Part shown: one piece after another, positions 38,280-45,154 of the stretch
Layout: every line of letters begins with the position of its first letter
How positions within the stretch are numbered: position 1 is the stretch's first letter
Source of the DNA: Barnesiella sp. An55
GTDB lineage: Bacteria > Bacteroidota > Bacteroidia > Bacteroidales > Barnesiellaceae
Direction of reading: 5' to 3'
NCBI RefSeq assembly: GCF_002161555.1
Contig: NZ_NFHZ01000003.1
Location: forward strand, 1-64,000
DNA: 64,000 nucleotides
Program-made: the position numbers and the translations under genes
Notes under the pieces: generated by a model
Databases searched by the model: none
What the model saw: only the letters and a program-made list of their open reading frames with translations
Told to the model about the DNA's origin: nothing

Positions 38280-39272
38280 TTAAATTCCCAACGAAGCCGA
38301 TATGTCGAGCATGCGTCGTATGGGTTTGATAGCCTCCCGGGCTATGGCTTCATCGACTACGATTTCGGGTAGCTCATACTTGAGGGTATTGTACAACTTT
38401 TTCATCGTATTCAATCGCATGAAGTTACACTCGCTGCAACCGCAACTACTTGCGTCGTCGGGAGGAGCAGGAATAAACTCCTTGTCGGGATTGCTTTTTT
38501 TCATCTCATGCAAGATACCCGACTCGGTGGCTACAATAAACCGCTTGCACGACGATTGGGTAGCAAAGCGCAGCAAAGCTGCCGTCGAACCCACCTTGTC
38601 GGCAATAATCAATATCTCGCGTTTGCACTCGGGATGAGCCAGCAACAAGGCATCGGGGTACTGCTTTTTCAAGGCTACAATCTTCTCGAGCGAGAACTGC
38701 GAGTGTACATGGCAGGCACCGTCCCACAACAACATGTGACGACCCGTTACGCTGTTGATATAGTTACCCAAATTCTTGTCGGGACCGAAAATAATCTTTT
38801 CATCGGCCGGGAAACTCTCTACAATCTGTTTGGCGTTCGACGAGGTCACCACTACATCGGTGTGTGCCTTTACGGCTGCCGAAGTGTTTACATACGATAT
38901 CACCTTGTAACCGGGATGTTGTTTCACAAACTCGGCAAAACGGTCGGCGGGACAGCTGTCGGCCAGGGAACATCCGGCATTCACATCGGGGATGAGTACC
39001 TTTTTGTCGGGACAGATAATCTTGGCCGTCTCGCCCATGAAGTGTACTCCGCAAAGCACCAGAATCGAAGCATCGGTTTTGGCAGCCCATTGGGCCAGGG
39101 CCAACGAGTCGCCTACATAGTCGGCAATATCCTGTATATCGCCCGACTGGTAATAGTGGGCCAATACAACAGCATTCTTCTCTCGTTTCATCCTTTCGAT
39201 TTCGGCTACCAGATCTACACCTTCGGGAACAGGCATATCCACATAACCTTTGGAGATATCTACATCGAACAT
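38280..39272 (-). CDS. nadA: Quinolinate synthase
   Basis: [4Fe-4S] enzyme that condenses iminoaspartate and dihydroxyacetone phosphate to quinolinate in NAD synthesis. The 330-aa protein has AHYYQSGDIQDIADYVGDS near the start, a cluster-ligand Cys at 74 (VLCGVHFMGE), further conserved cysteines in NAGCSLADSCPA and HPECKRE, and the C-terminal CGCSECNFM. The partner nadB is in this window but not linked. It heads a nadA-leuS unit and borders the left DnaA-box spacer. Confidence 0.96.
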   Translation of the reverse strand: MFDVDISKGYVDMPVPEGVDLVAEIERMKREKNAVVLAHYYQSGDIQDIADYVGDSLALAQWAAKTDASILVLCGVHFMGETAKIICPDKKVLIPDVNAGCSLADSCPADRFAEFVKQHPGYKVISYVNTSAAVKAHTDVVVTSSNAKQIVESFPADEKIIFGPDKNLGNYINSVTGRHMLLWDGACHVHSQFSLEKIVALKKQYPDALLLAHPECKREILIIADKVGSTAALLRFATQSSCKRFIVATESGILHEMKKSNPDKEFIPAPPDDASSCGCSECNFMRLNTMKKLYNTLKYELPEIVVDEAIAREAIKPIRRMLDISASLGI

Positions 39273-39771
39273 ATATATATTCCTTTTTATTTTTTAATTT
39301 AAAATCTTTATTGTTGATGATAATAGGCTGTTGATAGCAAGGATAACTTCTTGTTAAAAGAGTTGCTTTTTATCTTATCAACCTCTTGTAGTCTGTTATC
39401 CTGATGTTGTCAATGACATTATATTTTTATAATGAGCTCTTTAACCTCCTTATCAACGCCTTGTTTACAAATTGCAAAGTTAATAACTTTATTCTATTTG
39501 TATGATTGATAAATAGATATTTTGAGGTGGATATGTCAACTAAAAACTTGTTGGTTTATTATTTGTATTTTCGTGATGACGTGCTGTATAACCATAGTTT
39601 TGTGATTTCAAAATTTTGAATCACTTTTTATACCTCCTTTTTATAACGCATTATCCACACTTATCGACACACTTATTCACGACGTTGTTGACGGGTAGAG
39701 CAGGGTAGTGTGGATTGTAGTTATCGAGTAGATATATTATCTTTGTATGCGCTTGCAAATAGGGTAGTTTT
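39273..39771. other. AT-rich spacer with DnaA-box-like cluster (left part of putative oriC)
   Basis: This 499-bp gap between divergent nadA and the methyltransferase gene is strongly AT-rich. It has a tight array of three box-like 9-mers on one strand: TTATCCACA (39651-39659, exact to TTATNCACA), TTATCGACA (39661-39669) and TTATTCACG (39673-39681). Looser same-strand matches are TTATCAACC (39375-39383) and TTATCAACG (39450-39458). TATCTTTG at 39738-39745 is the likely -7 element of the downstream gene. No ORF or RNA gene is apparent. Confidence 0.6.
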
Positions 39772-40302
39772 ATGAAGAAAAAGAGTATTCTCGACTTGAA
39801 GCGAGTTTCGCAGGAAGAGTTTAAACACCTCGAAAAGATACCTTTGGTGGTGATTCTCGATAATGTGCGCAGTCTCAATAACATTGGATCGGTATTTCGC
39901 ACGGCCGACGCTTTCAAGGTAGCCTGCATATATCTTTGCGGCATCACGGCTACGCCGCCTCATACCGATATACACAAGACGGCACTGGGTGCCGAGGATA
40001 GTGTCGATTGGATTTATGAGCAAGATACCTGTACTGTTGTTGATAAGTTGTTGGCCGACGGTTATGAGGTCTATGCCATCGAGCAGGTAGAGGGGAGTAT
40101 AAGCCTCACCGACATCGAGTTGGACAAGAGTAAACACTATGCCGTTGTGTTGGGCAACGAGGTAAAGGGTGTGCAGCAGTCGGTGGTAGATAAGTGTACG
40201 GGCAGTATCGAAATACCTCAATTCGGGACCAAACATTCATTGAATGTATCGGTAACCGCCGGTTTGGTGATTTGGGACTTTTTCAAGCAACTGGGACTAT
40301 AA
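39772..40302 (+). CDS. RNA methyltransferase, SpoU/TrmH family
   Basis: The 176-aa protein is a single SPOUT domain without the N-terminal substrate-binding extension. It has motif 1 (LDNVRSLNNIGSVFRTADAF, about 27-46), motif 2 (VLGNEVKGV) and motif 3 (IPQFGTKHSLNVSVTAG). It probably methylates a 2'-O-ribose in tRNA or rRNA; the target is not clear. Together with the convergent DUF4294 gene it is enclosed by two DnaA-box-rich spacers. Confidence 0.88.
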   Translation: MKKKSILDLKRVSQEEFKHLEKIPLVVILDNVRSLNNIGSVFRTADAFKVACIYLCGITATPPHTDIHKTALGAEDSVDWIYEQDTCTVVDKLLADGYEVYAIEQVEGSISLTDIELDKSKHYAVVLGNEVKGVQQSVVDKCTGSIEIPQFGTKHSLNVSVTAGLVIWDFFKQLGL

Positions 40303-40899
40303 CGAGCCCTGTTCTACCAGGATACAGATACGCTCGATTGTCTTGTCTCTCCCCTCGGGTTGCCAATCGGTCTTGAGCGAGGCACCAAACATCTTACCGA
40401 AGAATTGCCAGAAGTTGGCTCTGAAACTACCCAAAAAAGCCTTTATCAACTCATAGGACGATTGGTTACATTCCCTGTTAATCAGCTTGATAAGCATCTT
40501 ACCTTGTGATAAGGTAAACTTTTTCAACACGGGTTTGTATTGTTTGAACACCTCTTTTTCCATGCGTTTCATATGTTCTTCGCGAGCCTTATCGTCGGGG
40601 AGAGTCTCCATATATTCATAGGTTTCTATGAAGATGGCGTAAATCAATTTGGCATAGGGTAGAGTCTTTTTCACGTCGCGCACGGTTTTCCAGTAAAATT
40701 TTTCCTCCTTCTTGTTTTTGAATTTCTCGGGGGGAAATACATAGAAGGTGCGCAAGCCTATCATGCGTACCGTATCGTTATCGATGATTACCCGATAGAA
40801 ATGTTTATAAGCCGGATGTTCCTCCTGGAATACCTGTGCTCGAAGAGACGGAACTACCAGAAAGAGAAAAAGAAACAATATGTACCATCCTCTTTTCAT
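40297..40899 (-). CDS. DUF4294 family exported protein
   Basis: A 200-aa protein with an N-terminal signal peptide (MKRGWYILFLFLFLVVPSLRAQ) and a DUF4294 core. The core is marked by a VRDVKKTLPYAKLIYAIF segment, MKRMEKEVFKQYKPVLKKFTLSQGKMLIKLINRE and a C-terminal FGASLKTDWQPEGRD. The family is largely limited to Bacteroidota and has no known function. I chose the ATG at 40899; an in-frame ATG at 40908 is also possible. It overlaps the end of the methyltransferase gene by 6 bp, tail to tail. Confidence 0.82.
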   Translation of the reverse strand: MKRGWYILFLFLFLVVPSLRAQVFQEEHPAYKHFYRVIIDNDTVRMIGLRTFYVFPPEKFKNKKEEKFYWKTVRDVKKTLPYAKLIYAIFIETYEYMETLPDDKAREEHMKRMEKEVFKQYKPVLKKFTLSQGKMLIKLINRECNQSSYELIKAFLGSFRANFWQFFGKMFGASLKTDWQPEGRDKTIERICILVEQGSL

Positions 40900-41336
40900 C
40901 GGGTACAAATGTAAACCATTCGATTTTTTAATAACTATTTTTTTGCAATAATTATATTATTCACATCTGTTTATAGTGTATGTGAACAAAGTGTAAATAA
41001 CTTGTGTATAAACCTGTTTATTTAAAGTGAATAGTTTGATAATTAATTATTTATGAATTGTTGATAAGTATGGAATTGATAGTGTTTGAAGTGTTGAAAT
41101 CTCGTGGATAAACTGTTGGTATGGACTTTTGAGCCGGGTTAACTACCTCTCTTTGTGCCGTAAGTTGAAATCTTGTCGATAGCTATGTTAAATTATATTA
41201 TAAATAATTGATATACAATATATTAATAGATATAAACAGACTGTGAATAGAGACAAAAGAGCAACATATATTTTACTGAAAACTCATGGTTGAATAGGAG
41301 ATAAATTTTACTTTTGCAGATAAAAGGAACTTTGTT
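40900..41336. other. oriC: Putative replication origin (oriC) core: DnaA-box cluster and AT-rich stretch
   Basis: This 437-bp gap lies between divergent genes. Two 9-mers match the TTATNCACA consensus exactly: TTATTCACA (40957-40965) and, on the other strand, TGTGTATAA (41003-41011). Single-mismatch copies in the second orientation are TGTGAACAA (40981), TGTAAATAA (40992), TGTTGATAA (41059), CGTGGATAA (41103) and TGTGAATAG (41242). An almost pure A/T stretch of about 50 bp (41187-41236), a plausible unwinding element, lies beyond the cluster. TACTTTTG (41309-41316) is the likely promoter element of the radical SAM gene. This is inferred from sequence only. Confidence 0.6.
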
Positions 41337-42205: not shown

Positions 42206-45154
42206 TTACTTCACGACTACCTTTTTACTTTGCGTCGAGTTTGCGTTATGAACTTTTACTATGTATATGCCTTGGTTAAGGTTCAGGTCTTTTTCATTGA
42301 TTACACGGCCTTCCCACACGAGGCTACCGCTTGTCGAATAGATTTGAGCCATGGCATCGTCGGCTACAATCTTGATAGTGCCGGGCAGGCTCCATACTTT
42401 TATGCCGTTGGTTTCGGTTTCGTCGATACCCGATGCGTCGGCAAACTCGGCGGTTACCACCGAAGCCATCTTCACGACAAACGAGCCGTTGGTTACACTC
42501 ACGCCGTTTACCCAGAGATTTTTCAATCCATAGCCGCTTTCGGGCAGGGGAGTGACGGTTACGGTAGTGTTTTTGGTCACCTTGTCGCCCGAGTTTACCA
42601 CCTGGTTATCGGCATTGCGCAGTTCCAGTGTACCGTTTTCCGAGGGTTCGATAGTGATGTAAGCCTCGTTGCATCCGCTACCGTCGCCGTCGATAGATAC
42701 TTTCCACCCCTTTTTCGTAGCGATGGAGGTTTCGCTGGTCCCGGCTTCATTCTCATTGTTGATACCGGCAATGAAGAGGTTTACATTGGTAGGCGTTGTG
42801 GCACAAACGGGCAGGTGATAGTAGAGGTCGTTGAGTTCGCAAGCCGTCATACCGTTGCCCGAGCACTCGATATAGTTCAGCTTCGTGTTGTTCGACAGGT
42901 CGATGGGGTCGAGTTGGTTACCGTCGCAGAAGAGACGCTCGAGCTCGGTATTGGCCGAGAGGTCGAGGGTGGTGAGCTGGTTGTTCGAGCAGGTGAGCCG
43001 CACCAGTTTCGTGTTGTGGGTCACATCGAGCGAGGTCAACCCGCTGTTGCTGCACTGCAACTCTTGCAGCTCGGTGAGCATGCTCACGTTGATCGAACCC
43101 AGTTGCGAGTTGTTCTGCAAGTCGAGTAACATCAGTTTGGTGTTGTTGGCCAGGGTTACGGTCGAGAGCGAGTTGTTCTTTATGACAGCCTCTTCGAGCA
43201 GGGTGTTCTTCGACAGGTCGAGCGAAGTGAGGTCGCAGTTGTAGCAGGTGAGCGAGAAAAGCTTCGTATTGTTCGACAGGTCGAGGGTACCTATTTCGTT
43301 GTAAGAGCAGTCGAGTTTACCCAATTCGGGGTTCTTCGAGAGGTCGAGGGCCGTGATATTGGTCCAGTAGCAGTCGAGGGTAGCCAGTGTGGCGTTGTGG
43401 GTTACATCGAGCGACAGCAGGTCGTTTTCGGAGCAGTCGAAGTAGTCGATGAGACCGGTGATGCGCACGGTTGTGCCTTTGGAGTTTCCTTCGAGGCGTA
43501 CAATTGACTCGTTGTCGATGGTCATGGTTTCGATTTCGCCGTTACCCCAATCGACTTCCACTTCGGTCTCGGGATCGATACCGCTGATACCAAACGAGAG
43601 CGGCGTGTTGTTTTCTACTCCTACAGATATGTAGTTGTTGGCGGCAATGGGAATGAATACGGCCGAAACCGTTACATCGCTGGTAGCGGCAAATATGTTG
43701 CCGTTGATGCGTTGTCCGTTGATTTCGTAGTAGCGCAGTTGATAACCTTCGGCCGGCGAAGCGGTGATATAGGTAGGTACACCCGATTCGAGCGTGTTGT
43801 TTTCGACAGCGTGCAGTTCGTGCGAAACCAGGTCGGGTTGCGAGAGGGTGATGGTACCCATTTCGGAGGGTACGATAGTAGCCGTCACTGTGCCACAGGC
43901 AGCACTGCCGTCGCCCGTTACATCGACGGTCCATTTCAGCTCGGTAGCGATAGAGGTTTCGCTGGTCTCGGCATTGCTGCCTTCGAGCAGCAGGTTGGGG
44001 TAGGGACTTGTCTCTTCCAGACCCGAGAGAGTCTGGTACATGTAGTTGAGGCTGCAAGGCGTCATGCCTGCATTGTCGCGGATATCGATGGTGTTGATAC
44101 CTTGGTTATAGTAGAAGTCAAGGAAGGTGAAAAGGTTGTTCTGTCCCCAGAATTTCTGCAGATAGCTATTCTGACTCAAGTCTATCTCGGTGAGTTTGTT
44201 GTTGCTGCATTTGAGCGATTTCAACCGGGGCATGTTCGATACGTTCAGTTTGGTCAGCTGATTGCCGTCGCACGAGAGGTTGGTAATGTTGCTGTTGGCC
44301 GAGAGGTCGAGGCTCTTTATCTGGTTGTTGCTGCAAACGAGATCCATCAGCTCTGTGTTGATAAATACGTTCAGCTCGGTCAAGTAGTTGTCGTTGCAGT
44401 AGAGTTTCTCGAGCTTTTCGTTTTTAGTGAGGTCGAGCGATTGGATGTAGTTGTAACGTACATCGAGTTGTTGCAGTTCAGTCAGTTTGGTCACGTCGAT
44501 TTCCATCAGCGAGTTGCCCTCCAGATTGATGTAATAGACATTGGGGCAACCCGACAGGTCGATAGCGCTCAAATCGTTGTTGTAAGCCGTAATCGATTCC
44601 AAGGCACTGCCTTCGCTGGGGAGTATAATGGTGGTAATGGCTCCCCGTTCGTCGGGATCGGATGTATCGGTTTTGTCGTACCGGCAGTTGAGGTTTCTCA
44701 GTTTCTTGTGTTCCGAGAGGTTGAGAAACATCAACTGAGGGTTGTTGTAGCAGTTGAGCGTTTCGAGGTTCAAGGCTCCCGAAATGTCAAGGTCGGTGCG
44801 TGCTATTTCATTGCGGTAGCAATCGAGGGTAGTGAGCTCGGGCTCGTTGACGATCGAGATGGAGGTTACGTGGGCTTCGGAACAGTCGAACGAACGCATG
44901 GGCGAGAGCACGCGTATCGTGTCGCCTACTTGATTGCCGCTTACGCTGCGTGTCCACATACCGTCCACGGTATATTCTTTTTGAATACCGTCGCCCCAAT
45001 CGACGATTACTTGACCGTCTGTGGCTACGGGTGTAGGATAGAATGTAAATTCACTGCCCAATTCAAGCGAGGTAGTGATTTTTATTTCGCCCCATGCCTG
45101 TGATGCACTCAACAAGAGGCATAAAGAGAAGAGGAAAGTTGTAAATTTTTTCAT
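42206..45154 (-). CDS. Exported leucine-rich repeat protein with T9SS C-terminal signal
   Basis: A 982-aa surface protein. The signal peptide ends near ASQAWG. It has two similar modules, each with a beta domain containing a VDWGDG or VDWGNG motif, a run of Cys-type LRRs of about 21 residues (pattern L-x-x-LxCxxNxLxxLDLSxN), and a SETSIAT...GDGS linker plus a repeat domain with a TVTA or TVTVT strand. The C-terminus (GIYIVKVHNANSTQSKKVVVK region, last 75 residues) fits the T9SS type A sorting domain. It follows the TPR/HTH regulator gene by 165 bp. It is probably an adhesin or ligand-binding protein; the ligand is unknown. Confidence 0.85.
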   Translation of the reverse strand: MKKFTTFLFSLCLLLSASQAWGEIKITTSLELGSEFTFYPTPVATDGQVIVDWGDGIQKEYTVDGMWTRSVSGNQVGDTIRVLSPMRSFDCSEAHVTSISIVNEPELTTLDCYRNEIARTDLDISGALNLETLNCYNNPQLMFLNLSEHKKLRNLNCRYDKTDTSDPDERGAITTIILPSEGSALESITAYNNDLSAIDLSGCPNVYYINLEGNSLMEIDVTKLTELQQLDVRYNYIQSLDLTKNEKLEKLYCNDNYLTELNVFINTELMDLVCSNNQIKSLDLSANSNITNLSCDGNQLTKLNVSNMPRLKSLKCSNNKLTEIDLSQNSYLQKFWGQNNLFTFLDFYYNQGINTIDIRDNAGMTPCSLNYMYQTLSGLEETSPYPNLLLEGSNAETSETSIATELKWTVDVTGDGSAACGTVTATIVPSEMGTITLSQPDLVSHELHAVENNTLESGVPTYITASPAEGYQLRYYEINGQRINGNIFAATSDVTVSAVFIPIAANNYISVGVENNTPLSFGISGIDPETEVEVDWGNGEIETMTIDNESIVRLEGNSKGTTVRITGLIDYFDCSENDLLSLDVTHNATLATLDCYWTNITALDLSKNPELGKLDCSYNEIGTLDLSNNTKLFSLTCYNCDLTSLDLSKNTLLEEAVIKNNSLSTVTLANNTKLMLLDLQNNSQLGSINVSMLTELQELQCSNSGLTSLDVTHNTKLVRLTCSNNQLTTLDLSANTELERLFCDGNQLDPIDLSNNTKLNYIECSGNGMTACELNDLYYHLPVCATTPTNVNLFIAGINNENEAGTSETSIATKKGWKVSIDGDGSGCNEAYITIEPSENGTLELRNADNQVVNSGDKVTKNTTVTVTPLPESGYGLKNLWVNGVSVTNGSFVVKMASVVTAEFADASGIDETETNGIKVWSLPGTIKIVADDAMAQIYSTSGSLVWEGRVINEKDLNLNQGIYIVKVHNANSTQSKKVVVK

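Follow-up and report, generated by a model that had tools for sequence, protein, structure and literature searches.

The chromosome origin region of Barnesiella sp. An55, a member of the Bacteroidales as the first-pass annotation of this DNA had proposed, lies between nadA and a radical-SAM gene, where GC skew changes sign both in this genome and in a closed congener. Within the 64,000-nucleotide window analyzed here, the roughly 2-kb stretch bounded by nadA and the radical-SAM gene (about 39,273-41,336) would constitute the chromosomal replication origin. We consider it likely that this oriC depends on DnaA, that its unwinding core lies in the nadA-trmH spacer (spacer A) and that the spacer between a DUF4294 gene and the radical-SAM gene (spacer B) holds a clade-specific second DnaA-box array. 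The first-pass annotation had placed oriC at 40,900-41,336. The skew minimum at 39,680 bears out the assignment of the region as oriC, but the core of the origin probably does not lie in the marked spacer B and is better sought in spacer A. The locus follows the order leuS-nadA (minus strand), spacer A, trmH (plus), DUF4294 gene (minus), spacer B and radical-SAM gene (plus), with trmH and the DUF4294 gene separating the two spacers:

39,273-39,771: spacer A, between nadA and trmH.
39772-40302, plus strand: trmH, encoding a SpoU/TrmH-family RNA methyltransferase (PF00588, E 9e-32).
40297-40899, minus strand: orfX, encoding a DUF4294 protein (PF14127, E 6e-60).
40,900-41,336, the marked region: spacer B (428 bp), between orfX and the radical-SAM gene (rSAM).

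The leucine-rich-repeat protein encoded beside the origin at 42206-45154 (minus strand) is 982 aa long; it contains an InlB B-repeat-like domain and carries a sorting-type tail at its C terminus.

To locate the skew transition, we computed GC skew over 224 kb of contig; other contigs were sampled, and 20 samples were taken across the closed 3.08-Mb genome of a congener (G001). Over the 224 kb of contig, cumulative skew is lowest at 39,680, which lies in spacer A and within the 39-41.5 kb interval anticipated for an origin at this locus. In the closed congener the minimum falls at 1,836,657, in the spacer homologous to A; sampled skew is negative between position 670 kb and this minimum and positive beyond 1.84 Mb, and the reverse switch occurs between approximately 0.2 and 0.7 Mb, roughly opposite the minimum. 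Among the Bacteroidales loci with the shared gene order (Bacteroides ilei, Phocaeicola, Paraprevotella, Prevotella-like, Muribaculaceae and Barnesiella), most have their local minimum in spacer A, as seen at Bacteroides ilei, Phocaeicola, Paraprevotella and Muribaculaceae loci. The minimum in Barnesiella sp. An22 (G003; loci L074 and L094), located about 1.4 kb off, speaks against A as the core, and in G010 and G036 the local minimum does not coincide with the unwinding element described below and a clean minimum is absent. Skew resolves position to between a few hundred bases and 1-2 kb, and is on its own insufficient to tell A from B. The use of trmH alone as an origin marker was rejected, as the local skew minimum lies elsewhere at the loci of distant members of the order in which nadA is not beside trmH (L086-L092).

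The proposal that this origin lies away from dnaA also holds. The dnaA gene of this genome is on contig C5 rather than beside the origin locus, and in the closed congener it is found at 1.4 kb of the record, 1.24 Mb from the skew switch. A dnaA-adjacent origin was rejected, given that in this congener skew is positive around dnaA and the box cluster is missing, the densest 500 bp of the first 20 kb containing two boxes only. The genome paper on Prevotella intermedia OMA14 reports that oriC is commonly far from dnaA in Bacteroidetes (PMC4755523). Like the Bacteroidetes oriC predicted there and in DoriC / Ori-Finder, the locus studied here is a box-rich intergenic skew transition off dnaA; unlike them, it carries an additional array, that of spacer B, which no genome in the comparison has outside the Barnesiella clade.

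Inspection of spacer A revealed the following features:

39273-39310: AT-rich stretch beside nadA, the likely DNA unwinding element of the core origin, adjoining trio-like repeats.
39298-39349, minus strand: conserved unwinding element, the sole match to profile R1 in the window.
39346-39338 and 39337-39329, minus strand: tandem boxes of this element, TTATCCTTG and CTATCAACA.
39328-39325 and 39324-39316, minus strand: spacer GCCT, followed by trio-like ATT ATC ATC.
39475-39482, minus strand: TAnnTTTG promoter-like element TAACTTTG, from direct reading, in a block conserved across the order.
39651-39681, plus strand: three DnaA boxes (TTATCCACA, TTATCGACA and TTATTCACG) at the trmH end, with the skew minimum at 39680.

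The 50-bp window starting at 39272 is the second least stable locus of the 64 kb. In the published layout of a basal unwinding system, tandem boxes are separated by a GC-rich gap of ~4 bp from three or more NAN trios (PMC8287927), and the criterion applied here was a box with at most 2 mismatches within 16 bp of at least three such trios, usually with tandem boxes. Spacer A presents this arrangement, with CTATCAACA (2 mismatches) followed by a 4-nt spacer and ATT ATC ATC, which corresponds to 3'-TAA TAG TAG-5'. Relative to the Bacillus subtilis oriC system, formed by DnaA-boxes #6/#7 and DnaA-trios (PMC6669920, PMC8287927), spacer A shares the tandem boxes, the 4-nt GC-containing spacer, the middle-adenine trinucleotide repeats and the AT-rich DNA beyond them. 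It differs in being far from dnaA, in its distal box TTATCCTTG, which is degenerate in Barnesiella (3 mismatches), and in its repeat units, which do not match the canonical trio 3'-GAT-5' and read 3'-TAA/TAG-5', keeping the middle adenine and complying with the NAN rule. The degenerate distal box and the non-canonical repeat units weigh against placing the core in spacer A.

The unwinding element is strictly conserved within Barnesiella, and its succession of tandem boxes, spacer, trio-like repeats and AT-rich DNA recurs in almost every other Bacteroidales A spacer compared; the length of this spacer is similar throughout the loci with the same gene order (approximately 425-590 bp). The consensus order at the nadA end, on the minus strand, is a pair of abutting boxes (TTATcaACA-CTATcAACA), a 4-base spacer, ATT/ATC-ATC-ATC and AT-rich DNA, and in some relatives the boxes are nearer consensus, as in L130 (TTATCCACA-CTATTCACA-GCCC-ATCATCATCATT). 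A test matrix trained on 17 sequences from outside the Barnesiella clade assigned 44.7 bits to the spacer A element, with the runner-up in 224 kb scoring 15.9, and a 28-sequence profile returned one match in the window (39298-39349, minus strand) and one per congener. In six genomes outside the training set (G012, G027, G030, G046, G049 and G050) the profile match and the local skew minimum are 10-380 bp apart, and some of these loci lack the nadA-trmH synteny, the neighbors in G030 being rpiB and a repeat-protein gene. The unwinding profile matches 38 of the 60 relatives at E <= 0.05; weak matches (E > 0.005), many of them probably due to chance, were left out of use.

Spacer A also contains a near-invariant block of about 65 bp (39474-39537, TGCAAAGTTAATAACTTTATTC...), initially suspected to be an origin element and partly accounted for by the TAnnTTTG element that it contains. 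We take this element (39475-39482) to be a promoter on the basis of the TAnnTTTG motif of Bacteroidetes, and TAACTTTG is a probable nadA promoter firing through the unwinding element: it lies on the minus strand, so that transcription of nadA would pass through that element. The palindrome-like part of the block, AAAGTTAATAACTTT, is conserved and only partly explained. At the right end of the spacer, the box cluster at 39640-39690 is significant (P = 0.0015), with a P of only 0.08 for spacer A as a whole. Located 1.3 kb to the left of B, spacer A is second by box count among 79 spacers in 463 kb.

Several features were also identified in spacer B:

40905-40912, minus strand, and 41307-41314, plus strand: TAnnTTTG-like elements, from direct reading.
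40957-41034: phased DnaA-box array, with boxes starting at 40957 (plus strand) and at 40968, 40981, 40992, 41003 and 41026 (minus strand).
41059-41067 and 41103-41111, minus strand: two more boxes, TTATCAACA and TTATCCACG.
41184-41236: AT-rich stretch, of which 41187-41236 is 46/50 A/T (92%).
41230-41250: inverted box-like pair, ATATAAACA (plus strand) and CTATTCACA (minus strand), kept in most congeners.

The two exact copies of TTATNCACA reported in the first-pass annotation were found where it had put them, at 40957-40965 (plus) and 41003-41011 (minus), and the count of at least five single-mismatch copies in one orientation was reproduced as five boxes, all on the minus strand (40981, 40992, 41059, 41103 and 41242), with four of the five falling within 131 bp. 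The middle boxes of the array are spaced by 11-13 bp, and those at 40981, 40992 and 41003 advance in steps of 11 bp, or one helical turn. Boxes with at most one mismatch are present at 41059-41067 in 9/9 Barnesiella genomes and at 41103-41111 in 8/9. No other 50-bp window in the 64 kb is as unstable as the A/T stretch at 41187-41236, although the earlier description of this stretch as AT-only was too strong because it includes four G/C bases.

The abundance of boxes in spacer B was assessed against 2000 dinucleotide shuffles of the 428-bp spacer, and both its 7 boxes with at most one mismatch (shuffle mean 1.23, P = 0.0005) and its two exact copies (P = 0.0005) were found to be in excess. AT-rich spacers of this genome are not equally dense, which had been named as an outcome that would undermine the origin call: spacer B ranks first in box density among 79 non-coding spacers in 463 kb of genome, with 1.64 boxes per 100 bp vs 0.34 in AT-rich spacers, a value that includes A and B. 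The 3.03-Mb assembly contains 87 exact copies of TTATNCACA, and those at 40957 and 41003 are the only pair less than 900 bp apart. Moreover, 11 box-like sites of spacer B hold their alignment columns in most of 9 Barnesiella genomes while the intervening bases vary, and in-register sites with at most one mismatch total 60, vs a mean of 7.6 and a maximum of 39 for 300 permuted motifs. That the boxes are a chance product of an AT-rich spacer is conceivable insofar as DnaA boxes are themselves AT-rich and their genome-wide excess is modest (87 exact boxes vs 65 for a reversed-pattern control), but the shuffle P values of about 0.0005, the first rank among 79 spacers and the in-register conservation make this explanation barely credible.

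The distribution of the array across relatives is markedly narrower than that of the unwinding element. Six genomes of the sister clade (L099-L104) present 4-10 boxes in spacer B, whereas in other families with the same synteny the corresponding spacer is in most cases short (70-230 bp) and contains 0-1 boxes, with two in the distant L082. Relatives among Bacteroides, Prevotella, Paraprevotella and Muribaculaceae lack the cluster in their homologous spacer, and spacer B is therefore better read as a clade-specific second DnaA-binding subregion. No match to the unwinding-element profile was detected in spacer B, where the best matrix score is 5.4 bits. A weak three-unit run seen by eye after the 41242 box is not kept in the congeners inspected and yields no profile match, and we do not claim trio-like repeats beside the AT-rich stretch of this spacer.

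These observations bear directly on whether spacer B could be the working origin, with DnaA filling 40957-41111 and melting 41187-41236, and spacer A retained as an ancestral remnant or for its promoters only. The boxes in B outnumber those in A and match the consensus better, and together with the least stable stretch they fit B as a melting site; B thus combines the densest boxes and the least stable DNA of the window, its boxes are in register among congeners, and it lies just ~1.5 kb from the skew minimum. This scenario is nonetheless improbable, given that the unwinding element has no match in B, that B is missing in other families sharing the skew switch at this locus, and that the element in A is strictly conserved in Barnesiella and shows no decay.

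The array could alternatively consist of DnaA operators for the divergent DUF4294 and radical-SAM genes, devoid of any role in initiation. Spacer B does lie between divergent genes and harbors TAnnTTTG-like elements at 40905-40912 (minus) and 41307-41314 (plus). In G007 and G008, however, the radical-SAM gene is displaced by ~4.5-5 kb and the array still adjoins the DUF4294 gene, and some ten phased sites would exceed the needs of a simple operator, making this reading very unlikely. Two congener loci (L078 and L079) carry an insertion of ~4.5-5 kb between the DUF4294 and radical-SAM genes, with the adjoining array intact.

The DnaA-control sites of E. coli, datA and DARS, are box clusters outside the minimal origin, and datA is located far from oriC. 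Spacer B resembles them as a cluster outside the minimal origin, and it may conceivably act as a control site near the origin that titrates or reactivates DnaA outside the initiation complex. The restriction of the array to one clade, outside the conserved core, and its location ~1.6 kb away from the unwinding element, across two genes, are consistent with such a role, which we nevertheless regard as doubtful, since B, less than 2 kb from the core, adjoins both the origin and a very AT-rich stretch of its own, unlike datA.

Under the preferred reading, with the core in spacer A and a second array in spacer B, DnaA would bind the boxes of spacer A, chiefly the tandem pair beside nadA, and would then assemble along the trio-like repeats, melting the AT-rich DNA at 39,273-39,310, where the helicase would be loaded. 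Spacer B would provide a further array for DnaA binding that the Barnesiella clade alone has acquired or retained. We infer that A and B cooperate, and B would most likely aid DnaA loading at the core while the intervening trmH and DUF4294 genes form a loop, as in bipartite origins.

Known bipartite origins comprise two box clusters, usually flanking dnaA, and a single unwinding site (PMC7561715). As in the bipartite origins of B. subtilis, Helicobacter pylori and Clostridioides difficile, the Barnesiella locus presents two intergenic clusters split by coding sequence, with a recognizable trio element in just one of them, here A. Unlike in those origins, the clusters are separated by trmH and the DUF4294 gene, and they do not flank dnaA, which maps to contig C5 and, in G001, 1.24 Mb off. 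There is roughly an even chance that Barnesiella and its sister clade possess a bipartite origin off dnaA, in which an ancestral, order-wide nadA-trmH unwinding module is joined by a later-acquired, helically phased DnaA array with its own melting stretch, 1.6 kb off across two unrelated genes. If true, this would illustrate the passage from a single-part to a bipartite origin without dnaA in between.

Searches of the literature on nadA with oriC in Bacteroidetes and on bipartite Bacteroidetes origins found nothing on point, and no experimentally mapped Bacteroidales origin was found in the literature searched. What is less expected at this locus might be an order-wide element whose trios are of the TAA/TAG type, along with a second array limited to one clade. 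The Bacteroidales rank with the most abundant bacteria of the gut, and their origin is not marked by dnaA; a short conserved element at the skew switch across several families provides a direct, testable origin address, which would aid genetic tools built on the origin as well as coverage-based estimates of growth rate. For the question of how multi-part origins arise, the second array, specific to one clade, lends itself naturally to comparison.

The DnaA protein encoded on contig C5 (L001) has the helix-turn-helix GKKDHATVLHA, the E. coli-type sequence being GGRDHTTVLHA, and this variant might be linked to the abundance of TTATCAACA-type boxes at such origins. A second protein of the same genome, encoded on contig C13 (L002, 1390-1989), contains a weak DnaA C-terminal-like domain scoring below the curated cut-off. 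Its neighbors are a gene resembling that of a single-stranded DNA-binding protein and one for a DnaC-like ATPase, and this gene group is probably part of the replication module of a mobile element.
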